A DNA stretch of 64,000 nucleotides from Owenia fusiformis (Eukaryota > Annelida > Polychaeta > Sabellida > Oweniidae), in NCBI GenBank assembly GCA_903813345.2, contig CAIIXF020000001.1, positions 52,903,885 to 52,967,884 on the forward strand. The letters are read 5' to 3'. Positions 11,110 to 63,300 of the stretch are shown in pieces (positions within the stretch are counted from its first letter, which is position 1; every line of letters begins with the position of its first letter). A model generated the notes under the pieces. It saw only the letters and a program-made list of their open reading frames with translations, was not told the DNA's origin and ran no database searches. A program made the translations under genes and the position numbers.

Positions 11110-14100
11110 AGAAGAGAAAAAAGATTTTATACGTGCCAAATATGAACGACGACGGTATGTCAGGCAAACCTGCACAAATCGTGAGGAAATACAAGAAGAT
11201 CTACGCCAGGCTGTGCTGTCAAGAGACATTTTTCAGTTGCTACAAGTTATGGGGGAAGGAGCTGACCTCATGGCGGTTCTAGCAGATAATGTAAGTTATT
11301 GGGGAGGGACAGACCAAATGGCTGTTCTTGCAGATAATTTAAGTCATGGGGGAGGGACAGCAAATAATGTAAGTTATTGGGGAGGGACAGACCAAATGGC
11401 TGTTCTAGCAGATAATTTAAGTCATGAGGGAAGGGACATACCAAAAATAATTAAAGTTATTGGGGAAGGGGAAGACCAAATGGCTGTTTAAGCTCAAAAG
11501 CTGTTCTTGCCTTTTTGTAGAAGTGTAGATATTATGTATATATTGTTCATGATTTCTATGTCATTGATATACAGGAGCAACAATATGAAAATTAAACAAA
11601 CATGTACAGCACACTGAAAGAATAGCAAAATAAAATACGTACCAAAACCATAGGATCTCATTTATGCAAAAATGTTCATCATCTTTATGTTCATACTTGT
11701 CTTCTTTCGAAAATTGGACCATTGTTTGATAGAATCATTTTATAACTTGCAGGACTACAATGAGACTGCCCTACACCTGGCTATAACACAAGAAGAAGGT
11801 TCTACACTCTTCCTAGTAGACTTCATTGTACAAAATTCAAACAGGTAAGCAAGTAATAAATTAATCCCTTTGGTTGAAGAAAGCAGAAATTAATACAAAT
11901 TCTCCCATAGCATAATTTTAAGTATATGTACATATACCTTGTTGCAGGGATGCATAAATAGAAAAATGAGATATTATAGGTGTTTAAAATGAAGTCACTT
12001 AAAAATATCAATTTTAACCTTTAGAAAGTTTGGTCTCCTTGACTGATTGATGAAAGCTGACTCCAGTCCCCTTTCTTGTTGGATTTTGATAGGAGCTTCT
12101 ATGTAGAATTATTTTGACTTGAACATAATTGTACTTCCTAGAATATATAAACTTCAATACTTTATAGTTTTTTTCCTGTGCCACCTCTATGTGCAAACGT
12201 TTGGTTTCCTATTAAATGAATAACCCATTAACTCATTCCTGGCCAAAGCTATTTTTAAAGATTTTCTGTTGGTGACTGGCAATTTTTATGGAAAAATAAG
12301 TAAAATTGCATGTTTACACATTAGCATGAAATAGACTGTATCAACACCCAAGTTATATGCCATTTGTGAACTTGTGAAACCAATGACAAAATATTTCAAT
12401 TGCACCCTACCAGGTTCCCCTAGTGACCACTAGAATATTTGGTTATATAACTGGTACAGATTATGTGACAATTACTGGACAGCATCCCGAAATATCTCGG
12501 GGTTGGTCACATACAATAATGATGTCATAGACGAAATATCTCGGGATTGGTCAGCAATGAGTTAAATGACATCGTGAAAAGTTTGAATCTGCCCCTGTGT
12601 ACTATTAAAATATTCTGTTGCAGTGAGACATTGAAGCGTACAACAACCGATGGCAACACAGCCCTTCATCTATGTGCGCTCTACAGGCAGACAGAGTGTA
12701 TGAAACTGCTGCTTCGTGTAAAGCCAGATCTTGCGGTTCTTGAGAACAACAGTGGGAAGACAGCATTGGATATAGCCAGGAAGAATGGCAATCAGCTATG
12801 CATCGATATGGTAATATTATATGCTTGCATATTTGAACCTGAATCAAACATGAATAATAAAAGACCAAATGAAATTGGATTCATCATCTTGTGGGTATTC
12901 ACTGGTCAGGATCAGAAGAAGGTTACTTTCAAATACGATCAAACAAGTCAACTGGTGGATTTCAGAAGCTAAGATAACATTTTACAATCAAAGTTTTTCC
13001 ATAATAGATGAATGTTTGTACTGTATATATATATTTCAGTTAACCCATGCCTTATCTGGAAAGACAGAGCTATTTGAGAATGTGAACATTGACTGGGGCC
13101 TGATGCACACAGAGGGGGGACTAGATGCTGTTGATTACAGTGATGATGAACTTGATGAAAAGGTGAGTAAAGCCCCCATTTTGAGCATTTGACCTTCCTG
13201 ATGAAAAGGTGAGTAAAGCCCCCATTTTGAGCATTTGACCTGCCAGTGTATACAGGGGTTTAGGAATATGCATGCTTGCAACAGCCACATTCATGAAGCT
13301 CTTTTATACCCAGAGGTACAGATAATTCTGGCATGAATCAATTCCCCGAGGACTCGGAGTGACAGATATAATCAAGGAATTTTTCTTTTAAATGAATAGC
13401 TCTGATTTCGATAATATTTGTCCAATCTACACCAATTGTATTTTAAAACTGTATAAATGTGTTTATATTTACTAATTTCTCTTCAACAATGTTTTGTATC
13501 TGCTGTTTAGGAAGGGAGAAGATCAAGACCAAGCAGTATAGTAAGTCAGGAATCTATGCAGATGCCCCCACCCCCATCCTTTCAGACCCCAGGGAGCCGC
13601 CCTAGTCTTATGACACCTGCCCCACCCTCACAACAGGCCAAACATAAAAGTAAGTAACTAGATTAGGTATTTAAATTGTTTGAGTTTCGGGTAATAGAAC
13701 GTATATAAAAGGTAAATAAAAGTCAAAAAATTCTCATAAATTAAAGATAAGAGAACAGGAATTTGACATGAACATTCATTTTCACCTTCTTGACACCTTT
13801 CTAAATATGGGATGAATAGAGGTTTTACCAAGGGAGGGTTTGTATATTTGGTTTATCAAGGTGGAACATAGTACTATTGGATACAGTTTTTTAAATGAAC
13901 AGTTTATGTACTGCCACTGTAACCTTCTGTATACCATAATATAAATAAGAAGAAACCACATGTTTCATGTTGCAGGTGGTATTACTAACCGGGATGTGAA
14001 TCTGCGTCGTAAAGGTCCTGCCCCACCCCCTCCACCTGGTCACACAAGGGTACCCTCTGATCCAAACACAATCAGAAAAATCATGGAGCACAAGAGAACC

Positions 14101-30275: not shown

Positions 30276-31129
30276 CTGAAAATATAACATATTCAAGTAA
30301 AGAGGGCATTGTAAACAGCAAGTAGTAAGGTGAAATATCACAGTTGTCTTGTTTTAAAATTAAGTTAACATTATGTAGTGAAATGTGTTACACAAGTCTC
30401 AGAACTTTGGCCCACCATAGAGGTTTTTACAGTTTACTCTTATCATATGCAACAATTATGCATATACTCCCTGTATTGACTGAACTAATTTGCATACAAC
30501 CAATCAGCGCAGGGAAATTATCGAAGCCTGAATAAACAAGCTTGCCAATATGACATTCAGATCATCATGAAAATATCAAATTTCATTGTCATGATATGCA
30601 GCCATTGTTCTTGGATGCCCTTTTAAATACAAAAGACTTCAAACAATTCAGACAGAACCGGATGATCCATGACTTTCAATTTGCAACATCAACGCAAATA
30701 TCATTTTCCTGACAAGACTTCCCATACAAGCTATTAAAAGTACATAGGTAAATCCTGACGAAAATATTCTCTGCCATTTGCCGATGCTTTTGATAATTAA
30801 CATAAGCATACTGGTAAAATATTTGGATACAAGTCGACCTCCTTGGTAAAAATGATGAAATTATCAAAATCAAAATCAATATTTTGAACATTTTTGTTTA
30901 TGAATATTATTAGTAAGTTTAATAGTGTTTGGATGTTTGTTTCAGATGAACTGTAAAACTGTATCTTAAATAATTGGTTTTGAATTTTGTTACATGGAAT
31001 AGTTCATTCTGTCTAGTTGATGAACTATTGTTTTTGACAAAGAAGTCACTTGGTAAAGAATCAGGTCTGTTAATACATTTTTAAGTTAGTTATAGAATAT
31101 TAAGGTAATTAATTAAGGAATATAGCTCC

Positions 31130-34800: not shown

Positions 34801-37800
34801 GATGATCTAAAACAAATATGTTGCAAAAATATAAACAAAATTAACCCCTATGTGTGGTCTATTATTTATTTAAGATGAACTAAAGTGGAAAATCGACTTT
34901 CCTTGGAATATTTGACAAAACAGTTGTAGTGTCTGACATCACTTCTAATGAAGCATTACAATCATCCATTATGAGATCACACAATTCACATGACCATTAT
35001 AATAGTTTAAAACAGTCAAGAATATATGGTATTTAACAATTTGATGTGTTTCATAGCTTATTTGATAACTTATTATGCATTTAAACATTCTTAGTTGGGA
35101 CTCTTTCTGCACGATTATTTATTTGCCCCGGGTGCCTTGATTTCCGGTTACTATGGTAACCATTTCTTAAATAATATTTCTGTTATACCAAATATTTTTT
35201 GATAGATTAATGCAACATTGTATACTACACATTCTGTGAAAAATTCATCAGAATATATTAAAAAACCAAAAAATTAGAGAGATATTATGAGAACTTTATG
35301 ATATACCCTCGTATAGCTGCTTAATCTAAAATACTGATGTATTTTAACAATGCAATAATAGTACATTATGATAGAACATTGTATTTATTTAGCAGACATT
35401 GTTGCAGATTGTAGAAGGACCTAAGTGTCTCATAGGTCCACATCGGCTGGTAGTCTTTTAGTTTACTTTTTGATTGTATTTGACATGTATAATTAGTATA
35501 TTTTGGTAATGATATACTATTATAAAAGTTGCTATAGAGATTTTTGAAAAAAAATTGAAAAGAGCTGACAGCTTTTTATTTCTCGAATATTAACAGACGA
35601 TTCTAACTTGAATTATGCATATTTTCTGATCATGAACATGGTTCACGGTTCGTTTCGGTAACAAAATGTCGGAACCTCTAGGGTAAGATTTTTCTTTTTT
35701 CCTTATTTCAAGAGTTGTAGGCAGAATCCCCACGACATTTTTATCACAAACGTATGTCAGTATCATATGTTTAAGAAAATGTACATGTTTACGAACAAAT
35801 AATACATTTAATACCACAAAATTGTTACGCAAATGGAACGGGTTTGAAGTGCAGATCTCAAAATGAAATAAGAATTGTAAGGAAAATATGAGCTCTAACA
35901 TTTCCTGGTCTACTTTATATAGATGAATGTATTGGTGAATTTCTTGTAAATGGGGAACACTACACAGTTCTCGACTCTGGCCTGACAGCTTCAACAGAAT
36001 ACCGTTCAAATTCTCAATATTTAGCAGCTACAAATGCAAGACTAGGGTGAGTAGAAATGAGCTACTATAGTACTAGTATATAATTATCCCATCGAACGAA
36101 GTTCGGAGGGATATAGGCAACGCCTCCGTCCGTCCGTCCGTCCGTACGTACGTACGTACGTACGTACGTCCGTCCGTCTGTCCGTCCGTCCGGGCAATAA
36201 CTCAAATACCGTTGGCCCGATTTTGTTCATATTTTGTACACATATACCTTATGGGGGTAGAAGTTCTGCTCGAAAGCCGATTTTCAAAATGGCCACTCAT
36301 TTCAAAATGGCGGCCATTTTAGTGACGATTTTACAGTAATTTAGGTGCAATATGTAAAACTGTACTAGCAATATGTTTTAAATGTAAAAAAATTATAAAG
36401 GACATTAATAATGCTACAAATGTAGATATTAAAAATGCACATGGCAGCCATCTTGAAAAATGGCGGCCTTTACTCGTCATTTTACGATTTTTGCTGTAAC
36501 TCAAAAAATAGTGGAGCGATTTTGTTCATATTTGGTGTGTGAATACTATAAGCATTGCACACTGTCTAAAGACACTTTTGGTAGAAGGCGGCCATTTTGA
36601 AAAATGGCCGCCATTTTAACGTATTTTACTATAACTCGAAAAGTAGTGGAGCGATTTTGTTCATATTTGGTATGTGAATACTATAAGCATGGCACACTGT
36701 CCTATGACACTTTTGGTAGAAGGCGGCCATTTTGAAAACAATTTTGAAAAATGGCCGCCATTTTAACGTACTTTACTATAACTCGAAAAGTAGTGGAGCG
36801 ATTTTGTTCATATTTGGTATGTGAATACTATAAGCATGGTACACCGTCTATTTCTAATGACGCTTTTGGTAGAAGGTGGCCATTTTGAAAAATGGCCGCC
36901 ATTTTAACGTATTCTACTATAACTCGAAAAGTAGTGGAGCGATTTTGTTCATATTTGATATGTGAATACTTTAAGCATGGGACATTGTCTAATAAAACTT
37001 TGGGGAGTAGTCGGCCATTTTGAAAAATGGCCACCATTTTTATGTGTGTTATTTTACAAGTACGTGTGCGATTTTTCAAAAATTTTAGAGGTGGCTACTT
37101 AAAAGCATATTATTTCTTCTGATGACAACTTGGCTAGTGAGGAACCATTTTGAAAATGGTGGCCTTTCTGGTGTGTTGTTTTATGATATTTGCGCTTCGT
37201 TTGTAAAAATGCCAGCCATTTCTGTTCGATGGGATTCGCTACGCTTTGGCGTTGCCGTTGTTCTGGTTTACCACAAGTTATCAGTCTCTTAAACATGCAA
37301 GGACCAATGCATGCCCTAAGTTTCAACAAAATGTCCGACTAATTCGTAGCCAGCACTGGGAATTACCAATACTACTCACCCAACTTAAACTGTTTTTAGT
37401 TCACTGGCGGATCCATCATCAATCATCAATGGATCCCCATTACATTGGATGTGCCCAGAAAGAAAATCTAGGGCCCCAAAAAATGTTGACCCGAAAAAAT
37501 TTGTAGGGCCGAAAATAGGCTTTTTTTGGACATAACTTGGCCTTTTCGGGCCTTTTAGCCTAAACTATCAAAAAATGAACCTTACATTTTCAAACTTGGG
37601 CCAATTTTTGGTTTTAGGGGCCCAAAGTTTTTTCCCTGACTTGAAATGTGGCACCCCCCCCCCTTGTTAGTTTCTGGATCCGCCAGTGTGGTTTGCCCTA
37701 TGTATTAAAAATATATGACGTTTGTCCTTATTGGACAGAGGATCTACTTCTTGGGCCCCTAAAGTAATAGATAGGAACCAGTGGATCCAGGCTGACTTGG

Positions 37801-39982
37801 GCGACGTGATGAAGGTGTATGGTGTAGTAACACAAGGTAGAGCAAATGCTGACCAATGGGTGAAAGCTTACACAATTGCCTACAATATACACGATGAGAG
37901 ACCGTTTACCAATGTTCTTAAGAAAGGTGGCCATAAAGTGAGCTTGTTTCAAAATACTTGTGTTGGCTTATACATAATGACCACTGGTCAGTATCAAGCG
38001 AAAGTAACGGCCGTAACCATCGCATCTAAGATGGTGGGCCGCAATTGCCAATATATTTAGTTTTCATCGAATTAAACTACTTTAAAGATGACGTTATGCT
38101 TTGATATTTGAACCAAACCAGACTCATATATGACATGGGAACTCTGGATTTTCATAATTTGTTCATATATCGTGAGTGGGCCTCACAGTTCAACGATATC
38201 TTCCCTAAAAGCGGTGGAAGATGAACTGTGGTGCCTACGCATTGTATTTGAACAAATGATCATACTCCAGAGTTTCCTTGTCACACATGCCTGATATAGT
38301 TCAAATATCAACTATAACGTATAACTAAACGTTAACATAAATATAGTACTGGAAAATTTAGTCCGGAACTATATTTTACGGTATAACAAAGCATCGCTGA
38401 CCACGTTCCTTCCATCCGAACCACGGTTCTCACTACTCGAATATCGATTCTTTAGTCGTGAACCACCAGTTCCTCTCTCCCGAACTTATTTCTCCTGCAC
38501 TCGCACAGTAGCTATAGTTCGTCAGCATATACAGTCCGGGGTTATATTGTATATCAATGCAGAAAGTCCGGTTAAGACAATAAATCCTGGAACACCAGGT
38601 CTGGACCTAGGATGTATGGTCCCTTGGACCATATATTCAAGGAGACTATATTTACCCTGACTATATACAGATATAATGGGAAAATAACGTTTGATTGAGC
38701 GACACATACTGCTGAGTATTCCCTGAATAAGCATCTAACGAATGAATGGTTCTAGCAGCTGTGTGGCATGATTAGGATCTCGCGCTGCCTTTATGTTGCA
38801 CCCTGTATAATCTGAAGCCAAGAACATTTATTAATTCACATTCTAACTACCGTACGGTATATAGGGTGTCCAAAAAACAGAACCAAAGAAGGGTTGAATA
38901 GTTCGGTCAATTTTGCATATTCTGCCTTGAAATTTAAATGTAAATTTTGTTGTGGAAGTTTGATGTTAATTTAGCCATTACAACTACAGTTCTTTCCAAG
39001 ACATGCTCCAACGTGGCATCTCTCTATGCACAATTGAATCCGACAAACGAAGTTGTCGATGACCCTCCTAAACACACCATTATGGATGGCACGAATTTGG
39101 GTAGCTATAGCCCTCCTGAGATCAACAATTGTCAGTCAGCATACACACTGTCTTTGATATATCCCCACCGATAAAAATTGAGATTAAGATCTGGTGAATG
39201 AGTTGCCCATGTTTTGCGTTCCGAGACTGATTAGCTGACCTCCAAAGCATTCCCCATCTTGACAAGCCATTCCGATGGCACCGTCTTGTTGAAAACATTG
39301 CCTACTTCTTTTGAATACCCCTTCTGGTGCCTACTGATCTCCAAAGCTTGATGAGAACTTCAATATAAGGTCATTGTCCTTGTGATAGCACGGCCACAGT
39401 CATCTTTGAATCAATGGGGACCAATGATTACGTGTTTGCTTATTACCACCAAGGCGGTACATTTTTCAGAATTCAATGGAAGCTGTAACACTTCATCAGG
39501 AGGATGTAAGACCAGTAGCAGCGGATCTAATAGTAGCAGCGAAAATAAACCTGTCCATTCAAAAAAAATATGTACAGGAGAGTCATCAACAACTTAGTTT
39601 TTCGGATTGATTCAACTGTGCATAGAGAAGAGAGGTGCCCACTTGAAGCATGTTTTGTAAAGTGCTTTAGTTTTTTACTCAATAAGCAGATTACCAGCAA
39701 ACTTTCACAACAAAATTCACATTGAATGAACTAAATAATTCTGAAATTTCAAGGCAGAAAATGCAAGATTAACCGAATTATTCAAATGTTCTTCGGTCCT
39801 GTTCCTGGACACCTGTAATACTGCATTTAATTTTATTCTAGGTTTTCAATGGTAATAAGGACAGACACACTCCAGTATTGAACATGTTTCAATCTGTACA
39901 AGCAAGATACATCCGCATCAGCCCAAAGACTTGGTATGGCCATGCTTCCTTACGATTTGATGTCATCGGATGTCACACGTGA
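31828..39982 (+). CDS. Small secreted F5/8C-domain protein, paralog B
   Basis: Five exons: 31828-31873 (46 bp), 34044-34151 (108), 35923-36046 (124), 37739-37937 (199) and 39842-39982 (141, stop TGA), in phase, 205 residues. Signal peptide [15 protein letters not shown]; helix [21 protein letters not shown]5/8C domain from [14 protein letters not shown] through [20 protein letters not shown] to [16 protein letters not shown] and FDVIGCHT. The gene is long only because its introns are full of elements: a foldback tandem in intron 1, a 1-kb palindrome in intron 2, Pearl-like element 2 and a small TIR element in intron 3, and an inverted repeat and a mariner remnant in intron 4. Its 5' flank (30.5-30.75 kb) resembles that of paralog C. 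Splice sites and frame are intact, so it is probably functional. AATAAA at 40056. Confidence 0.87.
32021..32986. repeat. Tandem pair of 452-bp palindrome-bearing units
   Basis: Two direct copies beginning ATATATAGAGATTATCCTAT at 32021 and 32473. Each contains an inverted repeat, GGTTCAGGATATTGGGATTA...TAATCCCAATATCCTGAACC, and a later GGAGCGGGACGTAAAGCTAT block. A separate 51-bp direct duplication (AAACCGGCTTTATGTAC...) follows at about 32986-33091. In intron 1 of paralog B. Confidence 0.75.
34287..35311. mobile_element. 1025-bp palindromic transposon with TA target duplication
   Basis: Begins CGAGGGTATATCATAAAGTT and ends with its complement, flanked by TA at 34285-34286 and 35312-35313. 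Pairing continues inward for about 400 bp per arm (for example GTGAATTGTGTGAT against ATCACACAATTCAC). No coding content. It lies in intron 2 of paralog B. Confidence 0.8.
35600..35830 (-). mobile_element. Solo arm of the 541-bp foldback element
   Basis: Diverged copy of the left arm of 23963-24503, sharing GGTAACAAAATGTCGGAAC and TGTAGGCAGAATCCCCACGA. Only one arm is present. It lies just before exon 3 of paralog B. Confidence 0.7.
36081..37268 (+). mobile_element. Pearl-like element 2
   Basis: Close copy of element 1: same start (TTATCCCATCGAACGAAGTT), longer CCGT/ACGT run (36127-36192), four core units with GGCGGCCATTTTGAAAAATG, same end (TTCGATGGGATTCGCTACG). Its high similarity to element 1 implies recent activity. 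Located in intron 3 of paralog B. Confidence 0.72.
37402..37688. mobile_element. 287-bp TIR element (CACTGGCGGATCCA ends)
   Basis: Begins CACTGGCGGATCCA and ends TGGATCCGCCAGTG, a perfect 14-bp terminal inverted repeat. The interior is non-coding and G/C-homopolymer rich. It ends 50 bp before exon 4 of paralog B. Confidence 0.7.
38098..38312. repeat. Imperfect inverted repeat (hairpin) in intron 4 of paralog B
   Basis: TTTGATATTTGAACCAAACC...AACTCTGGA pairs imperfectly with TCCAGAGTTTCC...AGTTCAAATATCAA. Probably an old hairpin element. The nearby block 38436-38480 is shared with intron 4 of paralog C (52765-52800), including GAATATCGATTCTTTAGTC. Confidence 0.6.
38864..39814 (-). mobile_element. 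Degenerate mariner-type element
   Basis: Ends GGGTGTCCAAAAAACAGAAC (left) and the complement of GGTGTCCAGGAACAGGACCG (right) form terminal inverted repeats. On minus at about 39225-39130 a transposase fragment reads TWATHSPDLNLNFYRWGYIK then DSVYAD and a stop, the DDE-region signature of mariner-like enzymes. Dead copy in intron 4 of paralog B. Confidence 0.65.
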
Positions 39983-45371: not shown

Positions 45372-48300
45372 TTATGCTGTTTGTTTTTGCTTTTCGTGAG
45401 ATCTGTGATGAAACACAAATGATATAGCTTTTGTTTCCCATGCACCTTTCAGTACCACATCCACAAGTCCTTTCTTATCTGTGTTGTGGTTCCAATGGGA
45501 TAGATTACTTGCACAGTCACTATCTGGTGGCGGAGGCCGCACTTGGATATTGTTCACACATCTCTGACATTTGAACCTGAAAATATAACTTATTCATGTA
45601 AAGAGGGCATTGTTAACAGCATATAGTAAGATGGAAATGCCAGTCATCATGTTATAATTTAAATGTAGTCGGCCTAAAAGTGCAAGCTAACATTAAGTTT
45701 AAAACTTAACTTGGAATGATCATCCATTTTTGTTTAACTAAATAGTTATACATTTATGTTGGTGGATACATTAATTATTACAAAAACAGATGGATTTGTA
45801 CTGAATATTTACAAAGAATATATTTGCCAGTGTATAATGTAAGACCTACTTATCATGTGTATCACTGCTGGTTTGTTCATGTAGCTGGAAGAGTTCTTTA
45901 AGATCCCCCAGAGTGAAGTGTCTCTCTACATCTTCTTCATTGTCCACTACACAACTACTGAGTGCCTTCTTGTGAGCCTGTCTCTGGAGAATCTTTTCCT
46001 CTATTGTACCAGTCTGAAATCATGTATAGTAAATGATATTATGTAGTGGAATATGTTTTACAAGTTTGAGATTAAGGGGTGCATTCATGTACCATTTTTA
46101 GTAGTGAATATTCATATATTGTCATTACCATGGAAATGGTGACACCATATTTAAAGAACAATAGACTTACAAATTCATAAATTTAAAGCACCCCAGATTA
46201 ATTCGCTGATCTCCAAGCACAATGCGAATTAGACAAAAATTATCATGTTAACCATAACAGGAAAAACTACTCACAGCAATAAGCCTATATATGTAGCACT
46301 GCTTCTTCTGCCCATCACGCCACACTCTAGCCATAGCTTGCTCATCATTGGCTGGGTTCCAGTCAGGATCAAACATGACAAGTCTGTTTGCACCAATCAG
46401 ATTCAAACCACAGCCACCTGCCTTACTACTCAGCATGAAAATGAACTCTGGGGACTGGAACAATAACAAAAAGTTAAATGGATTGCAAAATATGGTAATG
46501 TGATGCAACATACATTGGTTGCCACAAAATGAGGATATAAGTGGATATAATATGGTGTTATCCACTAGTAGATAATAATACCAGTCAACAATGGGAAGTT
46601 TTTACTCTTACAACGGCAAATTACACAATGATATAGATTTACATGTGGATACTCACACAGGGATCATTGAACTTTTCTACAACTTTAGCTCTCTTCTTAA
46701 TTGACATTGAACCATCCAACCTTACAAAGATGTACCTAAAATGTAAAGTACATAGTATGATTATTGATTTCACAGCTCATGCCATTTTATTTTTCACAAA
46801 CTCTGTATAATACCAATAGGTGGTTTATTCAGTACAGTACAGTATGCAACTGCATGTATTACAGCACAGTATGCAACTGCATGTATTACAGTACAGTCTC
46901 CAGTTGAACACTTCTAAAAGAGACATGCATGACACGTTTTAATGTTCTTTTAAATGGGTTGAGTACGAATAGCAAAGGTTATGCATAATGCCCTCACCAA
47001 TAATGTATAAATTATGAAAGTAAAGTGTTGTCTTGCATCATAATGGTTTCACACTCCACTCTTTAACAACTAGTCTTAAAGTGTGGAGTATTAAGTATCA
47101 GGATATCAAAATGCTGCGTTTTGACATAATTGAAGCTGAAAATATCATCCTCAATCTTAATCTTACCCTCTATATCTGCAGAGTTTTTCAAATAAGTCCA
47201 GTGTTTGTGTGTAGTTTGACACAAGTACAACTTTGTCATCTGTGGTTGCCTTCACAGTGGCTAGGATGAAGTCTAATACTGTGAACTTACCTGTAAGGGA
47301 TTCAGAAAAGAAGACAAGAAGATAAGCACCACAAAAGTATATCATATGGTGGCAGTCAACATTTTTGAGTTTTTATCCTGTATAAACATATTGCAATCAA
47401 ATTAATGTCATATTATTTGTGAATCTTTTGGCCTCTATTTTCTTCAACATGATTTGTAATGACTTCATCATAATATTAGTAGAATGTAATGGAGTTTTGG
47501 ATAGTGAAAACAGTTCAGAAATGGTGAGCAAAATCAGGGTAATTGCCAATTGGAAAGTGTTTCTTATTTCTTATTGTAATGCTGGGTTATTAGTTATGTT
47601 GTTAAGGGATTTGTTAACATCTTGTAAACATTTAATTTTACATGTTAACAGATGTACAGGAACCCATGCTCTAGTATTCTTACATAATCATCAAGTTTAC
47701 CTGAAAGCTCAGGTTGCAGTTTCTTGGGATCATACTTTGTTGGGAACATGTCTAAGCCCCCATTAAAACCACCACTGCCTTCAACACACTTCTCATAAAT
47801 CAGATCTGGATCTAGAAAGAATATATGGTGATACAAATAAACAATTTATAAGATAAGAATGTTGAATATGCTCCTATGTAAATATTTTTCAATTCTTGTT
47901 CACTGCAGATACATTCATTAATCTCTTAGGAAAAATTCTAAGGATTGTACTTTCATCATGGAGAATAGAGGTCAACATTAGCTTGTATCCTACCACAACC
48001 AATACACAAGGGAAACTACTTACGATTGCACAGTTTCTTCAGTTGTGTAATGGCAGAGAGAGAAGATGCTGTGACTTTGCCATTGCTCCTTATTTCTAAC
48101 TCTGCCACCTTAGATTGCACATACTGTTTATAGAGGGTGCTTTGCAAGGGGGTCAATCTACAGTTCACGATCTGTTCAACTGAAAGAAAATAATACTATA
48201 GCGACATGATCTATGAGTAATAAGAAGGCTTGATCAACTTGATATGTATCTCAGAAAATATGTTGTTTGTTGTTGGGGGTTCGGGTTACTGTTTTTGGCA

Positions 48301-51300
48301 TTTGTGATTTGCAATGTCCAATCAAATTAAGAGCAATAGAATCATAACAGACCAGGAAGAGTAAAAAGCGTTAATGGACCTTGAACTATTAGTAGCTGTG
48401 TATTAGGATGATGTACATGTTTAATAATTATAAAAAAAAGCATTGCTAATAAAAACTTTCAATGGGTTGTCATGCACTTACTTTTCACAGGTAGATACTT
48501 GGTGAGTAGAGCCTGGGTTCTCCTGATGATACACTTGTTTACTATTGCAGCTAACTGGAATACATTACAGAGTATAAATTTTGGCTCATATGAGGAGTGC
48601 TTTAATAAATGGAATATCTCTATCTTCTATGAAAGCTGAGCTGAAAACCCAACACTTGATAAAACATACATACTTTGTTAAAAGAGGTTGACATTTTGCA
48701 TTTTTTGAGGCCAAAAATGCAGATACTAATGCAGTCGAGACTGGTCATTCTAAGTCATTGAGTCATTACTTAGAACTTGTATATTTCAAAGCACAATGCT
48801 TATTAAAAACATGAAAACTATAAACACATGAATACACATGAATATAAGTATTTTCCCACTAACATAAAATTAACTTTTTCAGAGAACTGCTGTTATTTCT
48901 GGGGCAGGACTACTGACAAACTGACAAATGACTACCTTCATGCTGAATTTGAAGTGTTCAAATATTTTCTTAATATTACCTCCAAAAGTTTCTCCTGTCC
49001 CTTTTTGTGTTCACTGTCTGAGGCTCCTGCATCTCTACCCCTCAATATAGGAACTTCAAACTTTCTCTTGAACTCATTAGCTGTACCTAGAATCACAAAG
49101 ACAACATGAATTATATAGTGTGAATAATGCAGAGCATGTTATGGCAAACTACAAATGATTCCATATTGTATCAGCAAACAACTGCTTACAAACACCAGTT
49201 TTGACTGACCTGGATACTTCATGAACACACTCCAAGGTAGAAACTCATAGCATAGAATTGAAATATAATAAACATGCTTGCCATACGTCATTTAACATGA
49301 CAAATCATTTTACATGAAATTCAAATCATCGTGATACATCAAAAATATATTGTTGTGGCCAGACATAAGCTATTGCTCCTGGATGCCCTTTGAAATACAA
49401 AAGACTTCAAACAACAATTCAGACAGAAGCACATCTAACATGACTCAACAACAACTGCAGATATCATTTGCATGAGGAGACATCCACATATGATATTAAA
49501 AGTATAAACATAGTTAAATATCATCACAGTGAGATGCATCACCAGAGCACACCTGACTGAGACGAGTTCTAGTAACAAAAAAACATGAACAGCATTGAGA
49601 TGTGGATCCTTGCCTTTGTGGCAGTACCAAGTAAGCTATTTAAGATACCATATGTATAGGATATCCTATGATTTTGAGATATCATTTTTATCCACGAGTA
49701 TCAGTATCTAGATGAGTGAGCGTAGCAAATGAGTGCAGATATTGTTATCAACGAGTGGATTAAAATGATATCACGGAAAATCATAGGATGTTCTATTTAT
49801 CCCATAGTTTACCTCACAAAGCATTTCAAAACAACATTCAGGTTTATTTTGCCATTTGGACTATAGCCAAAACATTAATCATTTCCATATTTGTAACATC
49901 ATGAAATCACCATGTAAGCATATAACATGTAACCATGTAACGATGCACATCACATTGGCAGGAGTTTTCAAAGCAAAAAAATTGGAACATTTGTTAATTG
50001 AACGCAAAACCTTTATTTTTCCTCTGAAATGCACCAGAATTTTACTGAGCATAGTTCAGTCACTTATCTCTCTGATGTAAAGTTTATAGGTGCAAACCAC
50101 AAAGTTAATGCATTAAACTAGTCAATGTTTGATATGATCCCCTCTTCTTAAATATACACTTGTCAACTTTTTCAAGTTTTCTTTATTTCAAAGCTTTAAT
50201 GAACACGTTGATTGCACTTACATTATAAAATCATATTTAGTTGACAACAGGTATTAGCATCTATGGTTTACCAGAAAACTATTGTGTTATTGTTAACTTA
50301 AGAATACCCCAAATCATTATTTTCATTTAAGAGAAGGAAAGAAAGAACATGTAAGAGGTAAGTGATTGCACAACCCATACAGCTACTACAGTGACAAATC
50401 ATTTTTCGAGATGATCATCAAGACAAATCATTTTTCTTTTTCGAGATGACTGTGATTGGTACAGTACCTATGAAGGCATTTGTAGACAGGAATGACCACT
50501 AATTTTATTGATGACATATCCCATTATAAATCTCTAAATACTTATTCCACCTTTAAGAACCATCCATACCAAGAAAATTATCTAGAACAAGACTTGATTT
50601 TTATGGTTCTAGACTCAAATTTCTTGCAAGAACCAACAATTTTTGCCTTGAATCCTATTACTCTGTATGGGGCAAAAGTGATGGCAAATGTAAACTTTGT
50701 AGTTAGAATGAACATGAAGACTTACTGCATTGGTTGGTTGCTGCTGTGTGAACATGAATCTTTTTTCCACACTGTTTGTAAGCAATGTCTCTCCGATTTA
50801 TTTTCTGACTTCATTAAGGGTAATCTGACTGAAAAATTGACCTTTATGCTTGGTGATGAGATTTTTTCAAAGTGGGGGCAAGACTATTTTAGATTATTTG
50901 ATAGCATTGTAAAAATGATTTTTAATCCAATTGTACAAGCCCATAGATTTATGTCTTTGATTTTTTTAGTATATGCAACATTGTTTTAAAGAAATTATAC
51001 ATGATTTTGTATTTTATTCATATTGTTTAGTTGTATGTAGCCGCACTGGATAATAATCCATGTGCCACTGTTATAAAAGTGTTGGCAAATAAATCAATAA
51101 ATAAATAAATTTATGATAAACCTCTTTTCTGTTGGTTTGTCAGAATGAAACTAGAACATTCATCAATTGTGTAAAATATTAAGTTTACACTGGGTGTTGC
51201 CTGTTGCCCCTTGAATTTTTACTTCATATGAAATAGTACTTAATGATTTAAATGTAACTGCAATAAAAATTTCACAACATGTATGTTTTCTCCAGTTTCA

Positions 51301-54300
51301 GTAGTTACTAGCACATCATGTCTCCAAGATTTAGAAGATAATGTGTCTGCAATGAAGAAAGATATAGAAAGACTCAACAAAGTAGCTTTCCCTGGACAAG
51401 CAGGTAGTGATTTTAAAACAACCCTGCTCTATTTGCACATAAACACATTAATATCACTTTATAGTAGTGTCAACATTCATTAAACAGTCAAAAGCTATAC
51501 AGTGTTTTTTGGGACCTTAAACATCATCATGAAGATATAGGCTTAAGGGACTTGACTAGTTTGGTCTTTAAACCTCTCTTAATTACTCAGGCTTTAAAAG
51601 GGTATGACACCACACCAGAGAATATGTCAATGAATCAGTAATATCTAACACCCTTTTCATAAAAGTGAATAAGGATTCTTATGAAAACATATGCATGATT
51701 TTGAAAGTATTAGCTCTAACACTCCCTGGACTACATTATATAGATGAATGCATCGGTGAATTTCTTGTGAGTGGAGAACACCACAGAATTCCTGACTCTA
51801 GCCTGACAGCTTCAACAGAATACCATTCAACAGAATCAGCTGCATATGCAAGACTAGGGTGAGTAATAATGAAATACTTATCACTCATTCAGTCTTTCAC
51901 ACACCGAAACCAACACATGTTCAGCAACAGACCATTCTGACTCATTTGTAGCCAGCAATGCAAGATTTGAGTAAGTGAAAATAGTCAGTCTTCCCTTATT
52001 TAAGTATTTTTATATTGTATGTTAGCCAGCATAATACTAACCTAACTAAACTGTTGCTGGTTTGCCCTTACATGCCTTAGTATTCAAAATAAATATCTTA
52101 TTGTACAGAGGACCTCAGGCCTGGGTTGCTAAAGTATTAGATGAGAACCAATGGATCCAGGCGGACTTGGGTGATGTAATGAAGGTGTATGGTATAGTAA
52201 CACAAGGTAGAGCAAATATTGATCAATGGGTGAAATCTTACACAGTTGCCTACAATATACAACATGGGACAACATTTATTAAAGTTCTTGATAAAGGCGG
52301 CCATGAGGTGAGTTAATGTCAAAATACAATGTACCTGTATCAGTCAATACATAGTGACAGGAAGTTAATTATGGGTATTTGCCAATTTTAGGTTTACCGA
52401 TAAAAATTTAGAAAAAAGTTGAATGCTTCAAGTCTAATACTTTAAAGATGCACATGATGACAAAAAATCCTATGGCACACTATTTATGATATTTGGCATA
52501 CACAGGGTCAGGGTAAGAAAGTAGTTCACTTTTATAAAGAGTAATATTGTCTAATGTAATAATGCATCTTCATACATTTGTACACAATAACAGTATTATG
52601 CATGAGTGATATTCTACAAGTACTGTATTACAAGTCACTTGAATTCACATGATGAAAAAATTGATTGAATCTACTTCCAAAACAGTTTATCAACGCTTTA
52701 ATAATACAACCCATTGCTGAACAAACTGATGGTGAAGAAAAAACATGGTTCTTACAATGTGAATATCGATTCTTTAGTCACGAACCACCAGTTCCTCTCT
52801 CCAGAACATATATCTCCACTTGCGCAATGGGTTCCCACATCACGAACCACACAGCTTTGTATGGGCATTAATTGGTGTTACACAGTCTACTGTCATTGAA
52901 GACAGTTAAATACACGAAACAACAATACTCCTATTCGCGATAAGAGTTCAGGTGGTAATTTACATAAATATCTCCCATGATGCATCGCTTTGGAAGGGAC
53001 AAATTTTCATTGGCCCGCCAAACGAGTCTGAACCTTTCTCAGCTTCTGATCTTCCATCAGCCATCAAGCATAGTTATATGATCCAATTTATTCAATAATC
53101 AGAAAGATAATCGGAGATTCAAAGTAACATTATTGATATTTTTTCAATCTTCGATGAAGTCTGAGCAATTTCTGGGAAATCAGTGATGTCACTGGAATTG
53201 GACGGCACTTTCAACTACAGATTTCTTCGGATTTGGGGATTACAGTTCAAAAAACCTTGTTATATAGTTTAATTACATACATTCCTATCATTTGTGCAAA
53301 TGCAACTCTACATAAATGTTTAATAGAGTCGCAGTGCGGCATTGAAAATAGCACCCCTGTATAATCCAATGGGAAAGAACCCGGATGTAGATGAAGTTGT
53401 ACCATACATGAGAGCTCTTCAAACGAGAGTTAACTAAACTGAACGAAAACTAAACATTATCGCATATTGGTATATTGACTTTATGGTTCTAAGTTATGGT
53501 GACATATTTTTGTCATTTCTGTGACTGGTTCAGTATTGTAAGTGTAGCAAGCCTTAAAAAAATTTATGACCAGGTTGAAAATTTCTCTGGAGGATCACTG
53601 GAATCCCTAAGAATAGTTTTGCAATTCTATGACACAGTCAGAGACTGAGTCAGCCTTTTTGTTGCATTCTGCAAAGATCTAATAAGACTAATAAAATTCA
53701 TTTACCATACTAATGCATTAAATTTTATTCTAGGTTTTCCATGGTAATAATGACAGACACACTCCAGTATTGAACATGTTTCAATCTGTACAAGCAAGGA
53801 TTATCCGTATCAGCCCAAAAACTTGGCAAGCCTATATGTCCTTCAGATTTGATATCATTGGATGTCACACCTGAGAAATTTCAGAGAAACCTACATTATA
53901 TGAAATAATATTTCACAAAAATTAAAATAATAATTTTGATGTAATACAATAATGCAAACAAGAAAACAAAAATAAACAAGGCATTCACATGACAAAATGT
54001 CACCATCTAGCTACAATATCATGAGTTCAATCATAAACCAGATTTGAACTTCTGAGAACTTGAAGATGATTTTGAAAAAGAAATTGGTCAATTTGAGGTA
54101 AGTTGAAAAAATACCTTTTTGACCTTTTTTACCTTGAGAAGGTCAAGTTTTAAATCTAAATATCAGATTTGAATTTCTAACTTGAAAATGATTCTGAATA
54201 AAAAATATGGTCAATTTGATTGACCTTGAGAAGCTTATTGAAAACCAATGTCACAAAAAACTGAGACCATAACAATATGTCACCATTTTTTGGTGGTGAC

Positions 54301-57300
54301 ATAAAAACTAATGTCTTCAGTGGAATTTGAAAAGGCCACATCACTGCACAATAATTAATAGACTATAACAATAACTCACCCATGTAAGCTGAAAATGGTC
54401 AAAAATACTACCAATAATACTATACTGGATGTTTGAGTAAGCGTTCCAAGCCAAGATTTACTGATGTTTAATTAAGTTTTCATTTTGGGTATCTACTTCC
54501 TCTCATAACACATTGAAAAAGAAATGATTTGGAATTTTGATTTCAAAATGATAAAAATCCATGGATTGACTGTTTTTGGCTCCTGAACCCATCCTAATAG
54601 AAACGTAAGACTATTTTCTTGGGACATTGCTAGAAATCTCTAGTTTCTCCCTCTGAAGTATTTGAAAGTAGCAATTTTAATCACAGATACTAAAGCTTAC
54701 CTAAGATGCCTGTGTTGACAAAATGTATCAAACTAAAGTACTCAAGCAGATCATTCTGTATAGGGGTTCCAGACAACAGTATTCTACGTTTGGTCTGTAA
54801 TGCTGTTAGAGCTGCATAAGTCTGGTTCTCAGAATTCTTCAGTCTGTGACCCTGCAACATAATGAACAAATTATTTTTCTTTATGGATGCAACACAGGCA
54901 AATTAGGTCATAGCAAATCCACAAAGTACTAGAAGTGAAATAATTTCATTGTAGCACTTAGAAAAATGTAGGTACCACTGAAAGAAAATCTTAACTTAAA
55001 TGATATTTTCTATTTTCTTTTAAATAAAATCCATTTATGGGAGTGTAAGTTAAAGTCAAAATAGCTCATAATATAATTGTTATCTTGAGTATCTTACAAA
55101 CAAGATATTAATAATTTATACATTTACATCTGTACTTTATTTTTTGTTTACTGTTGCTTTAGTATTGTACTAAAATGTCAACTCAACAGATATTAAATTG
55201 AGTGTTTTTGGTGATCTTTGAGGATGTATGATTGACTTGAATGATGTGTAATCTAATGTAAGATTAATACATTGAATTTATCATATGTACCTATATCAAC
55301 GAGTTATAAGAAATTATTCTAAAATTGAGAAAATTACTGAAAGTTTATTCCCTCTTTTACTAACCTCATCGCACATGACTAGCCCCACTGTGCCTTTATG
55401 TAACACACTAGCATGCAAGCGAAATGTTTCATATGATATGATCAGAATGGGATTTGGTATTCTTCTGCCAGACTGATGCATAAAGCTACCTGAAATCAAA
55501 CATACACAGCATAATGGTATTAAAGAATATTCACACATGGCTAGGCAAGGTGTGTCGACTCCAGCCAATCCAAACAGAGTTTTTCTGAGTGACAGCAGTG
55601 CATGAAATAATCAAAAATGCATTTGTTGTGTATGGTTACTAAGGTGAGGAGATGTTTTGCCAATACTTGAACTTTGCATTAAGTTTCATTGAAAATATGT
55701 TCTTTTATTGATTTTGTATCTTTTAGGTGATTTTATAGAAAATATTTTGCAATGTGTGAAAAGAATTTAATTGTTAAAAATGTTCAACTGAAATAGCCTT
55801 TTACCAAGCACATTTATTTTATGCACATGAATCAAGTCAACAATTTATCTAAATCTAAATGTTACAAGTAGTACTAAGTCTACTATGCTAATGATAAAAT
55901 TCACTGCTTCAATAAGAACTTGAATTGCTCAAATAGGAACTTGAATTACTCAAATAGGAACCTCAATTGCTCAAATAGGAACTTGAATTGCTCAAACAGG
56001 AACTTGAATAATTTTCAAATGCATTGCACTCAAATGATGAATATTTTCTAGAATGTTAACTAGTTTGATGGAAAATCAAGTTATAGCAAAGTGTCATTTT
56101 ATTGCTCTAATACAGTAATATAATAGTATTTGCTTTTAAAATTCTGGCTCACTTAAATTTCTGTCTATTTCACTCTTGGATCCAGAGTCAATGGCCAGCA
56201 CTGAGATTCTGTTTCCTAACCACTTGCTTATTTCATTGTACCAATTCTACAACAAACAACAAACAGCGTTAAAAATACACAAAATGTCATAATAGGGTAT
56301 AATTCATCATATCCATCTATAAGTTGTGTATGAAAGTTATTTTATTTTTTACTAAAGTCTTCGTTTTTCAAAACCCAAGTCAAAACATTGCTCCTATGCT
56401 ATAGTATGAAGTCATCTTTTACAAGTGAATAACCATCTTAACATATTGCTCATCTATTGAAGCCACTATACATAATAAATGCAATTGTAAAATTTGGTAT
56501 GATTATGTCAGACGTGTGTAAGAGGAACACTGAACATACTTTCTCTATAAGAGCCTTACCTTGACTAGACTGCTAGGAGCCACTACAATGGCTTTTTCTA
56601 TATGGGCCTTACCTTGACTAGACTGCTAGGAGCCACTACAATGGCTTTTTCTATCAGAGGTTTACACTCTGGACTTTGTTTCTGGAATAAACAATTGTGA
56701 TAAGCATTACTGTAACAATAATATTGAACAGTATTGCATACCTAGCGAAGCATCTGTATTGATGTCAATGGGAAAGTTAGCAGGCTATGTCCACCGTTTT
56801 TGCCCGATTACCCCGATATAGCCCCCTTACCTCATTTTGATATTAGATTCTTAAATAACCATGACAATGTATATTTATGTAATAAATGAATTTTAATGTA
56901 AGCGACATCTTTTATATATATATAACTTATTTGTAATTGCAATTTGCGCATGCGTTTCTCTAGTTCATATTGTACATGTAGCAAGGATAGCCATGGGAAT
57001 AAGGGTATGTAATACATCAGTTATGTCACTATGACGTGAGATATGCCTTCATTCTTGCCCAAATATACAGCCTCCCATGGTCGGCCTGTACTGGGAGAAC
57101 TCAGGCATATTTCACGTCATAGTGCCATAACCTCTAAATATTCCATTCTATTGAATGAAACAATAGTATTATACAACATTTCATTCTATTGGCGAAATGC
57201 ATGCAGGTTTTTATATTGCCAATGCCCAAATGGAGCACAATGGTGAAGATATTTTCATGGTTGAAGTTTTAGCATATATTGGTTAATTTGAAGAAAAGGG

Positions 57301-60300
57301 TACACAGTTATGGAACCAATGTAAATGCAAAGTGTAATAATCTTTGCAGGTCTCAAGGACAATATTACTTGTAAGTATATAATTCATTTTGCATTCTGTA
57401 ATACTCACCAGTAAAGTCCATAAAAGAGTAATACATTGTAAAGTTTTACCAAGCCCCTGAAAGATAAAAATATGTAAATATTACTGGATATTACTGACAT
57501 GTTTTACTTAATTCTGGATCTTGAATATCTAGTTCTGCATTCAGAGGATGAGTACAATATAAGCAAATGAAATAAGAAATAAATCAGTACCTATTCAATC
57601 ATAATTACATATGCATTCCACTGAATTATTCTACCTGTTTGTCACACCACAGGGTTTTTAGGTGTAATATTTGGCCATTTGAAAGCGCTTTGGAAATATC
57701 AAATAGATGGCTTTTACATCAAAGGCTTTTACATTTTGTTTGAAAAATAAGTGGTACATGTATTTTGATGAAATCAAAAAATGATAAGATAGAATTTGGA
57801 TTTTTAATATACCCTCTTTGAAATAGTCAACTTAGATTTTAAATCAAATATAAACTAAAAAAAAAAGTTATCCCAAGCATCAAAATATTTTTGTACATGT
57901 CACAAATGATATCTCTGCCATGTTATTTTGCCACAATCTGCTTGATGACATCACTTGACATGTGGCAAGATGAAAATACTTTTGACAGTGTTAGTTAGAT
58001 GAAGTATTTTTGGCTGAAATAATTGCCTTAATTGCCGACCATATCCTGAGAGTAGTATCATTGTAATTCTCCTGAATTCAAAACATTTTCTTGAATTTAT
58101 GTGGCATGCATGTTTGACTCAATCATCTAGTAACAGACTTTTTGCCAATTTTACAATTGAGGGTTTCATCTACATATACAACATACAAGTACTGTAGAGA
58201 TTACTTTGCTAGACTAAAGAATGAATATAACCCTATTTTGGCTACCATTTCATCAGCCATGATGCAGCCAAAATTATTCTCAATCTGCAGGCCTGTGACA
58301 CAATCGTACATGAACTTCACCCCCTCTCGCTGATGAGGTCTTAGCACACGAGACAAGATTGGGTCCACAACTACATGTACTGGCTGCTTTTCCCTTTAAA
58401 TGAAAACATTATACATATATTACTCCTACTCAGATTATATTTACAATATAAGGCTTCAATCAAAGATAGAAAAATACTGGAAAATGACTTGAAATTGAAT
58501 TTGATAAAATTGACTTGGGTTACTCTCAAATTTCCTCATACTTATCATTGACTCTAAGCTTAATGAACTTACAGGTCAACTTTCAACTGGTCATGGGCCT
58601 TGAGCTCAGGGGGAGTATACAGGACTAAGGCACCTTCTTCAAATGGGTCATGCAGAGCCTTCCTTACTCCTTGTTTCCTTAGACCTAAAGCTCTGCTACC
58701 CAACTGTCCTATTGATACAAATAAACAAACCTTAATCCAACTTTCAGCAAGTCAATCAATTATAGATCAAGGAATTAACATGCAAAATGCACCACCTGCC
58801 ATTTGTTACAGACACCGAGCTCTGAACACAAATGCCATCGTCCACAAAAAAGTTGAAGACTGTAAAAATATGTAAACACTTGACTTGTGGTGGTGACATA
58901 AAAATTGGTAAACTTCTTTCCTCTTCAGAGCAGATTAGCTATAAAATTAATTCTACAATAATGTGTTCCTATCGATACATATAACTTAAAACCAAGTAGT
59001 TTCAAAACTTATATTCTTATTTATCAGAGTGTTTCTCTGAAGATGTCTGTATTAACTAATATTTCACTTACCTTTATAATTGGGTATGGGAACCTTAAAT
59101 GGCCTGGACAATATCTTTTTGATTAATGCTTCCTGAAAAAGTGTTACAAGCACCTGTTAAACAATGAACTTAGCTTAGATATCAACAAATCTATTAAAAG
59201 ATGGCACTAAGGAACAAATAAAGAAACTCACAAACTATAGTGGATAAACTTGAAAGAAGTCTGACAGTTTTGACAGATATGTTTTAAAACTATCAAAAAC
59301 ATTTGACATTTAGGTTACAGTAAATGTACATGTTCATCATTTTATATATGCATGGTTCTCACTAGGCTTTTAGACTCCAAAGATTCTCTCGAGTCTAATG
59401 TCTTTAGACCCTCCTGCTCCAGAGTCTTATAGCTTTTCTGGAGTCCAAAGTCTTTTTTCCAGAGTCTAATTTTACTTCTTCTACATAAAACTGTATACAA
59501 ACAAGGAGTGACACTTACATGGGAGGAATGATCTGGTGTACTAGGTCTATTGACTACTTACATGGGAGGCATGATCTGCTGTACTAGGTCTATTGACTAC
59601 TTACATGGGAGGCATGATCTGGTGTACTAGGTCTATTGACTACTTACATGGGAGGCATGATCTGGTGTACTAGGTCTATTGACTTACTTACATGGGAGGC
59701 ATGATCTGGTGTACTAGGTCTATTGACTACTTACATGGGAGGCATGATCTGGTGTACTCTGTCTATTGACTACTTACATGGGAGGCATGATCTGGTGTAC
59801 TCGGTCTATTGACTACTTACATGGGAGGCATGATCTGGTGTACTAGGTCTATTGACTACTTACATGGGAGGCATGATCTGGTGTACTCAGTCTATTGACT
59901 ACTTACATGGGAGGCATGATCTGGTGTACTAGGTCTATTGATTACTTACATTGGAGGCATGATCTGGTGTACTAGGTCTATTGACTTCTTACATGGGAGG
60001 CATGATCTGGTGTACAAGGTCTATTGACTACTTACATGGGAGGCATGATCTGGTGTACTAGGTCTATTGACTACTTACATTGGAGGCATTTGGTGTACTA
60101 GGTCTATTGACTACTTACATGGGAGGCATGATCTGGTGTACTAGGTCTATTGACTTACTTACATGGGAGGCATGATCTGGTGTACTAGGTCTATTGACTT
60201 ACTTACATGGGAGGCATGATCTGGTGTACTAGGTCTATTGACTTACTTACATGGGAGGCATGATATGGTGTACTAGGTCTATTGACTACTTACATGGGAG

Positions 60301-63300
60301 GCATGATCTGGTGTACTAGGTCTATTGACTACTTACATGGGAGGCATGATCTGGTGTACTAGGTCTATTGACTTACTTACATGGGAGGCATGATCTGGTG
60401 TACTAGGTCTATTGACTTACTTACATGAAAGGCATGATCTGGTGTACTCTGTCTATTGACTACTTACATGGGAGGCATGATCTGGTGTACTCGGTCTATT
60501 GACTACTTACATGGGAGGCATGATCTGGTGTACTAGGTCTATTGACTTACTTACATGGGAGGCATGATCTGGTGTACTAGGTCTATTGACTACTTACATG
60601 GGAGGCATGATCTGGTGTACTAGGTCTATTGACTACTTACATGGGAGGCATGATCTGGTGTACTAGGTCTATTGACTACTTACATGGGAGGCATGATCTG
60701 GTGTACTAGGTCTATTGACTACTTACATGGGAGGCATGATCTGGTGTACTAGGTCTATTGACTTACTTACATGGGAGGCATGATCTGGTGTACTAGGTCT
60801 ATTGACTACTTACATGGGAGGCATGATCTGGTGTACTAGGTCTATTGACTACTTACATGGGAGGCATGATCTGGTGTACTAGATCTATTGACTACTTACA
60901 TGGGAGGCATGATCTGGTGTACTAGGTCTATTGACTTACTTACATGGGAGGCATGATCTGGTGTACTAGGTCTATTGACTTACTTACATGGGAGGCATGA
61001 TCTGGTGAACTAGGTCTATTGACTACTTACATGGGAGGCATGATCTGGTGTACTCGGTCTATTGACTACTTACATGGGATCCATGATCTGGTGTACTCGG
61101 TCTATTGACTACTTACATGGGACCCATGATCTGGTGTACTCGGTCTATTGACTACTTACATGGGATCCATGATCTGGTGTACTAGGTCTATTGATTACAG
61201 CTGACAAGGGCTTTCTAAATGGTGACATGTACTGACTTGATAATGGTACTTCATCATCCACTGGCTTCTTGGCTTTCTGCAAACAGGCCATAATTTATTT
61301 ATCATTGTTAGATTGTGCAAATTGTATGTAACATGCAAAATGACAATAAGTGGGTATGGAATAAAACATTTGGGAAAAAATTCAAAACCATTATTCAAAT
61401 AGGGTATCGCGACGTTTTTTTTTATTTGTGGAATCCAAGTTGAATGACCCCAAAAATATAATAAGCATGTTAAGTGCTGAATATCATTTTCAGTAGTTGA
61501 TTTTCTTATATATACCAGGTATATACAAATCTTGACCTACAGACAGATATTAAAATGAACTTATACTATATTCATATTTTTCAACAAATCACATACTTGG
61601 CAGTTTGGTGTCCATTCAGGATCAGTCAGCTTTCTCTTCCCCATCTGACTAGGGGCCATACTTCTTCTCTGGAATTACAAAAAGGGAATTATTTGTCTAA
61701 GACAGCTTTGGATCAAACATTTGTACTGACATCATCTGTAGCAAACATCATATAAATGTATACTCTTTATCATTTTTTCTGTGCATCAATCAAACCTAAA
61801 GATATGGAATCAAAGGATCACCATCCGATATTATATGAAAATACATTAATATTTTAGATATAAGATTATTGTATGTTTCAGATAAATGTTCATGCCAACT
61901 TTCAGCTCATCTTTATTATGACAGACCGAAATTGAATTTTCGTGTCGAGTAAATGGTGATAATGTTCTTTTTTATGAAGCAGGGAAGTCAAAACATAAAG
62001 GACTCACAGTCCTGTGCTCACATAGTGTAGTGGATATGCATAAAATGAATGTGGATGTGACTCAATCCGAATAGCAGTTTTAATTTGTGCGGCCAATGTT
62101 GACTTTGTACATTAGAAAGTTCCCTGAAAATGACAAAGTCCTACTTTTTGTCAAATTTTATAGAGCAAACACCAAAAACTGTAATTTCAAGAGCTTTGAA
62201 ATCTTCAGAGGACATGTAAGTTGCATATACAGCAACTACTACAAGTTATTTGAAAGTTCTACTTCAACAAAGTGTCTAGTATTTACAGAAAATTTGACTT
62301 TTTGATGTCAAAATCAGCAATTTCTTGGGAAATGGCGATGATAGGTCAAATAGGCATTATGGATATGCATAAAATGAATGTGGATATGACTCAATCCGAA
62401 TAGCAGTTTTAATTTGTGCGGCCAATGTTGACGGACGGACGGACCAGACGGACCAAAGGATGGACGGTCCAACGGACGCCTGGTCAATCCCAAAGGCTCA
62501 CTGTGTGAGCCAATTACTAATAGAAATCATAGTAAGCATTGAAGATCATTTAGAAGCATTTAAGATCGAATCCACGGCAAAATCTGAATTGAAATATTCA
62601 CACGCGGACGACACAGAATGCACTTCCGGTTTATAATCTATGGTTTTATCAATCAAAAAATATTATTATGAATTTATTCGATATCTGCTGAAATGTGGTA
62701 CATTGTATGTATACTTGTGTTGATTGTTACAAAATAGGTAGGGTAAAGAATATGTAAAAGTCGTTTGATCTTGTCCCAGAAGCAATATTTTGTTATTTAA
62801 TATCGACTAGAATTCCTTTAAGTGTAAGAGGCGTAGAAAATTCTCCCATGTTGTAATCGTACAGGCAAAAGATTGAGACCTTCTCAGGACTATAGTCCTG
62901 GCATGGGAAAATGCATGGCTCCTTGTTGCGTGTTAAAAAAGGCAAGAACTTAACTTCGACATACAAGTGTTACCTGATAAATGGGACCCTCGAGTGCCTT
63001 CAAAATGGTAGTAAACGAACTCCAATGTAACTACATCAGCTTATCTTTCCATCCGATCAACAATAAGTACAGTTAATATAGTTATACAAGAAATGTAAAC
63101 GAACTGAAAATATTCCCAAAAATTTTCCGAATGGCTTGTCATTTCCTGAAGTTATGATACGTTATATGAGACCCTATTTGTTGCAAGACTTATGCTTGGC
63201 ACAACCGTCTCCATGTTTTTAAGTAATATCAGGCTTGAACATTACCACGGTCATGACAGGCCTTACAACCATTGCCACAGCCATATAAGGCTTTAACATT

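Follow-up and report, generated by a model that had tools for sequence, protein, structure and literature searches.

What becomes of an exon when its 5' splice site is copied dozens of times into the intron that follows it? This question is raised by a stretch of 64,000 nucleotides from the annelid Owenia fusiformis (assembly GCA_903813345.2, contig CAIIXF020000001.1, positions 52,903,885 to 52,967,884), here called the window, in which coding exon 3 of the DNA-repair gene RAD54 runs into a minisatellite that is anchored on the exon's own splice donor. We consider that this array is a recent and near-neutral donor-spanning minisatellite, tolerated since the first donor wins, and we give this reading a probability of about two in three. 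The locus is a natural experiment in splice choice, with 39 near-identical donors after one exon, of which the first alone would give a working DNA-repair protein. Its transcripts would test, without a designed reporter, whether animal cells choose the donor that is nearest across the exon or the donor that is nearest across the intron.

Structure and origin of the array

A preliminary description of the window had placed about 39 copies of a 5' splice site inside RAD54, each made of the end of exon 3 plus its donor. Our analysis bears this out, and the coordinates given at that time were correct within a few bases (Table 1). The unit consists of the last 32 nt of exon 3 and 11 or 12 nt of the intron. 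Dissection of the minus strand gave 39 donors including the native one, of which 38 read GTAAGT and one reads GTAAGA, so that the start of the intron is indeed filled with near-perfect donors. In the 38 units that follow the native donor, a GT stands at the donor position without exception, and the complete GTAAGT is present in 37. The mixture of 43- and 44-bp forms was found as described: 27 of the 38 donor-to-donor intervals measure 43 bp, 10 measure 44 bp, and a single one measures 40 bp. There are 17 sequence types among the 38 units, and the mean distance between units varies weakly with lag (3.05 at lag 1; 3.25 to 3.3 at lags 13, 16, and 17). Of the 44 occurrences of the motif ATGTAAGT in the window, 38 lie in the array; the mean in shuffled sequences was 5.0, and none of 100 shuffles reached 44. 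Exact scans for the unit in viral and genome contig collections returned no match, which is uninformative for an animal repeat, and no RNA family (Rfam gathering scores) or tRNA (ARAGORN) reached threshold in the window.

The array takes up 1,641 of the 2,027 nt of intron 3 (about 81%), and its length is the value from one assembly. The assembly of near-identical repeats of 1.7 kb is prone to error, and collapse or expansion could have distorted the copy number of a donor-spanning repeat that is itself real. The 17 types follow one another in a non-repetitive order, which argues against simple artificial copying, and we regard a distorted copy number as very remote.

RAD54 lies on the minus strand from about 61.7 to 45.4 kb of the window and has 18 introns in a spliced homology model. 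Its identity rests on an exon-by-exon match to human RAD54L, and on an independent match of the exon at 46266-46454, whose top hit among solved structures, 'similar to RAD54-like' (1z3i), has an E value of 1.8e-36, against 6.4e-20 for the runner-up ERCC-6. At the end of exon 3, the human sequence NQPPCLDSSQH/EAFIRS aligns in such a way that NQPPCLDSSQH stands opposite the 32 exonic nt of the unit. Because these 32 nt align with RAD54L coding sequence, the array was copied from the exon; the coding letters in the unit are ancestral and do not stem from the array. An exonised satellite, where the array would have been the source of the end of the exon, was also considered and is ruled out by the same alignment.

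The first unit sits within exon 3, and the final donor joins non-repeated intron. A GGATCC variant of the exonic part is present in proximal units (whole in unit 3 and partial in unit 2), and the units from the fourth onward carry GCCTCC or near forms. The distal end of the array passes through GTAAGTGTCACTCC into unique intron, and on the exon side the letters are CTGTAATCAATAG; judging from these letters, a shared short TCA could have been the seed of the first duplication. By sequence and homology, a short tandem duplication over the exon 3/intron 3 boundary placed a second copy of 32 coding bases, together with the first part of the intron, inside the intron; slippage or unequal exchange would then have expanded it to about 39 units. 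The high identity of the units suggests that the expansion was recent, as had been proposed. The modal form accounts for 11 of the 38 units and the 44-bp form for 10, and this degree of identity is what would be expected from a recent expansion.

Which donor is used

All 38 distal donors would append V-S-S-Q-stop to exon 3. The preliminary description had predicted a stop within five codons, and this is exact, as the stop is the fifth added codon. It is identical for every distal donor because the first intronic unit is always translated first. Pairing with U1 amounts to -7.4 kcal/mol in 34 of the 39 donors, the native donor among them, and to between -4.7 and -7.7 kcal/mol in the remainder.

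We propose that exon definition pairs the 3' splice site of exon 3 with the native donor, the first one that lies downstream of it, and that the remaining 38 near-equal donors would normally be removed together with the intron. If only the first donor is used and the distal donors are spliced out in this way, the array would be near-neutral. Published minigene and tandem repeat data point in this direction. For human alternative splicing, PMC9225289 reports that the upstream one of two donors of similar strength is favoured when both flanking introns are longer than 250 nt. In its five equal-donor minigenes, which had CAG/guaagu twice at a spacing of 52 nt and introns of 365 nt, the upstream donor was used exclusively. 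The introns on either side of RAD54 exon 3 measure 320 and 2,027 nt (the latter 386 nt when the array is subtracted), and the exon therefore has the architecture for which this preference was described, which supports use of the native donor. In the human ABCA7 gene, a variable number tandem repeat (VNTR) in intron 18 has the donor of exon 18 as its first GT, and the donor located one unit further is reported to be used in 2 +/- 1% of transcripts, unaffected by the length of the repeat (PMC5954066). This again supports the first donor. Use of a distal donor would add VSSQ-stop, and we infer that the product would be degraded or inactive. The array would be free to vary in length, with a small leak on RAD54 output at most.

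The preliminary description had also proposed that array length tunes the choice of the exon 3 donor. According to this proposal, competing distal donors would set the fraction of productive exon 3, and array length would tune the dose of RAD54. The 39 donors are nearly equal in U1 pairing, and any leak would cut the dose, since the same early stop follows all 38 distal donors. Moreover, in the IFI6 repeat two downstream units act as donors, which results in three mRNA species (PMC4526556). However, the exclusive use of the upstream donor in the equal-donor minigenes and the low, length-independent use of the next ABCA7 donor both disfavour such tuning. In addition, exon 3 would measure 160 nt with donor 2, and the last donor, donor 39, would require an exon of 1,758 nt. 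We consider dose tuning by distal donors improbable. Titration of U1 had been invoked as well, and we judge it implausible that the transcript of one gene would achieve this in trans.

Several points weigh against a near-neutral array with a dominant first donor. The data of PMC9225289 are human. The native donor is not privileged in strength. Among the 38 distal donors, 33 have its value of -7.4 kcal/mol, and across the 18 donors modelled for RAD54, which span -4.0 to -11.4, it falls at the median. In 38 of the 39 units, with one 40-bp unit excluded and with changes that are not independent, there are 0.22 changes per site in the 9-nt donor and 0.86 in the other 29 exonic sites; the lower value in the donor could hint at constraint. 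Finally, the length of the ABCA7 repeat alters both splicing and expression, which speaks against strict neutrality.

The ABCA7 data indicate how length might act in another way. Between the smallest and the largest diploid lengths, skipping of the downstream exon 19 increases 3.2-fold, between the alleles of one person it increases 4.1-fold, and expression decreases by 33% with length (PMC5954066). A longer RAD54 array would then result in less productive RAD54 through skipping of exon 4 or slower removal of the intron, and not through distal donors. The ABCA7 VNTR likewise begins at the donor of an exon, and exon 4 of RAD54 is 61 nt long, so that skipping it causes a frameshift (HDSWVAEL-stop); skipping of exon 3 keeps the frame. 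On the other hand, the effects in ABCA7 span alleles of about 0.3 to 10 kb, and the RAD54 array measures 1.7 kb. The authors propose SRp30c, YB-1, and Nova-1 motifs as a possible cause, but these belong to the ABCA7 repeat and the sequence of the RAD54 unit differs. Downstream skipping is a fair rival where an effect of length is concerned; as the explanation of the RAD54 array, we think that modulation of this kind is unlikely.

The array could also be a platform for U1, where intronic U1 sites prevent premature polyadenylation or hold unspliced RAD54 RNA in the nucleus. U1 sites can cause nuclear retention, and 38 strong GTAAGT sites are present within one intron. U1 guards against intronic polyadenylation (PMC5499120). 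Intron 3 contains neither AATAAA nor ATTAAA, which leaves no evident target for such suppression, and we find a role as U1 platform highly improbable. An RNA hairpin that hides the donors was not seen either: a 271-nt piece of the array had a z value of 0.59, and 142 of 200 shuffles folded at least as well.

The array contains no AGGT. It therefore has no segment that could give both AG and GT, as in intron gain by AGGT tandem duplication, and no AG directly before GT, the ratchet site from which an array of recursive splicing sites would be built. The pyrimidine fraction at the AGs of the array has a mean of 0.49 and a maximum of 0.69, and it is 0.50 to 0.81 at the 18 modelled acceptors. New internal exons from the AGs of the array are unlikely. 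As the two ranges overlap, some of these AGs could still be weak acceptors.

Table 1. Positions of the RAD54 array, its surroundings, and the other donor-spanning duplications in the window
Feature	Positions	Strand	Details
Tandem array in RAD54	59509..61198	-	39.2 copies of a 43/44-bp unit; Tandem Repeats Finder (TRF): period 43, 96% matches
RAD54 coding exon 3	61160..61276	-	117 nt, phase 0/0; gives the exonic part of the unit; spliced homology model, translation
Native donor GT of exon 3	61158..61159	-	CAT/GTAAGTAG; first of 39; last exonic base 61160
Last donor of the array	59517..59518	-	GTAAGTGTCACTCC, running into non-repeated intron
RAD54 intron 3, spliced from the native donor	59133..61159	-	2,027 nt; 386 nt when the array is subtracted
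RAD54 coding exon 4	59072..59132	-	61 nt
Second RAD54 donor-spanning duplication	56539..56659	-	53-bp unit x 2.3; donor 56612
ASAP-like gene, donor-spanning array	11244..11488	+	Periods of 48/30/78 bp; 245 bp, degenerate; donor 11291
ASAP-like gene, donor-spanning duplication	13153..13241	+	46-bp unit x 1.9, 100% identical; donor 13163

Other donor-spanning duplications in the window

Tandem duplications span three more donors in the window, one in RAD54 and two in an ASAP-like gene. The RAD54 donor at 56612 ends the exon ...VAPSSLVK, and its second copy would give VRPI-stop. In the ASAP-like gene, the second copy of the GTGAGT donor at 13163 would give VSKAPILSI-stop. Of the four donor duplications in the window, three thus have a stop soon after the distal donor, so those genes would give full protein from the first donor only. 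The array at 11291 keeps its frame open for 66 codons. A second GTAAGT at 11369 lies 78 nt downstream, is in frame, and would add 26 residues (VSYWGG...TANN), so that this array could extend the protein in the manner of IFI6; two copies have TTAAGT at the donor position. It is probably older than the other donor-spanning repeats.

The ASAP-like gene matches human ASAP1 and has Pfam ankyrin and SH3 matches. Over 10900-15450 on the plus strand, no match to ASAP1 was found before residue 539 at E values up to 1, and the ArfGAP and upstream exons therefore seem to be outside the window. The donor at 13163 (GAAAAG/GTGAGT) replaced by hand a program call at 13140, and at 14217, 15042, and nearby the modelled donors and acceptors may bypass exons that were not found.

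When 26 or more of 30 positions had to match a shifted copy (half-window 15), 4 of the 24 modelled donors were tandemly duplicated (two in RAD54 and two in the ASAP-like gene) vs none of the 24 acceptors. Below this threshold the next-best value was 18, for donors and acceptors alike, and none of 10 extra donors from other genes, whose positions were set by comparison of paralogues or by eye, passed (maximum 19). With the RAD54 array set aside, 3 of 23 donors is significant against a background of 1.96% in the gene spans (P 0.010) and of 3.1% in the window (P 0.033). With the array counted in both, 4 of 24 donors gives P 0.041 against 5.5% and P 0.19 against 9.5%, the latter not significant, and the comparison of donors with acceptors is not significant either (Fisher P 0.11). 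Counted as events, 4 of the 6 arrays of short period in the gene spans are donor-spanning, as are 4 of the 10 in the window; when the first array is set aside, this gives P 1.3e-4 and P 3.6e-5, respectively. The count assumes uniform random placement, uses arrays that were hand-listed from TRF rows and merged, and omits a degenerate GACT run at 42112 (period 21). The recurrence hypothesis was formed after the data had been seen and is only partly significant, and we treat it as a lead and not as a result.

A tentative extension of this lead, for which we see the odds as unfavourable, is that donor-spanning tandem duplications are frequent in the lineage and are filtered by exon definition, with donor-spanning copies persisting since the first donor is chosen and copies that span an acceptor or are purely exonic being lost. 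The RAD54 array would be the extreme case, and copies would occasionally become coding, as in the ASAP-like gene. Each step of array growth would lengthen the intron and so strengthen exon definition, which would make further growth safer. If donor-spanning duplications turn out to be common in the genome, a mutational process, the mode of splice-site recognition, and the growth of introns would be linked. Such duplications would then also mark a kind of repeat that is tied to disease risk in people, as for ABCA7.

Other features of the window

A partial copy of the last-exon region of RAD54 is present, split between 29295-29537 and 30232-30357, and matches 45.3-45.7 kb at 92% over 243 bp and 87% over 126 bp; it is probably a broken duplicate. 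Three paralogous gene pieces with F5/8 type C (discoidin-like) domains, at 25391-26592, 33878-38060, and 51247-52316 on the plus strand, are interleaved with RAD54, and some of their frames are broken. Tandem arrays of about 140 to 290 bp at 17443-19934 and 36490-37026 contain AAAATGGCCGCCATTTT-like palindromes and are perhaps derived from mobile elements. A short reading frame at 1127-1348 on the plus strand contains SPDMTPPDFYIWGYLKDHVY, which is reminiscent of the end of a transposase.

Comparison with known systems

The native 5' splice site of coding exon 3 lies in the first unit of the RAD54 array, and each further unit carries a donor-like sequence. By its sequence, we therefore class the array with those of IFI6 and ABCA7 as a donor-anchored minisatellite. 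The human IFI6 (6-16) minisatellite, described by Turri, Cuin and Porter in 1995, reportedly spans a splice donor and has a 12-nt in-frame unit. Both this minisatellite and the RAD54 array lie over the splice donor of an exon and offer many donors. They differ in that downstream units are used as donors in IFI6, whereas the first added unit of RAD54 brings a stop. With a unit of 43 or 44 bp and a stop after all 38 distal donors, the RAD54 array does not extend the protein as IFI6 does.

The likeness to the ABCA7 VNTR is that a coding exon has its native donor in the first GT of the repeat and that every unit may offer a donor. In both, the unit length (25 bp in ABCA7) is not divisible by three, and retention of a single unit therefore shifts the frame. 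The ABCA7 unit is C-rich and starts at the GT, whereas the 43/44-bp unit of RAD54 includes 32 nt of coding exon. The ABCA7 repeat was shown to be highly length-polymorphic and to alter splicing. A further likeness exists with the duplications in PMC4974935, which are also short, tandem, at or near a splice boundary, and tolerated in coding genes, with premature stops in the duplicated part. The RAD54 array differs from these because, having no AGGT, it forms no new intron, and the ancestral intron would still be removed.

A literature search that left many journals uncovered found no report of the RAD54 array or of an excess of tandem duplications at donors vs acceptors. With IFI6 and ABCA7 as precedents, the novelty of the RAD54 array is modest. 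What is new compared to these two is that each unit carries 32 nt of coding exon, that the gene is a DNA-repair gene, and that similar events are found nearby.

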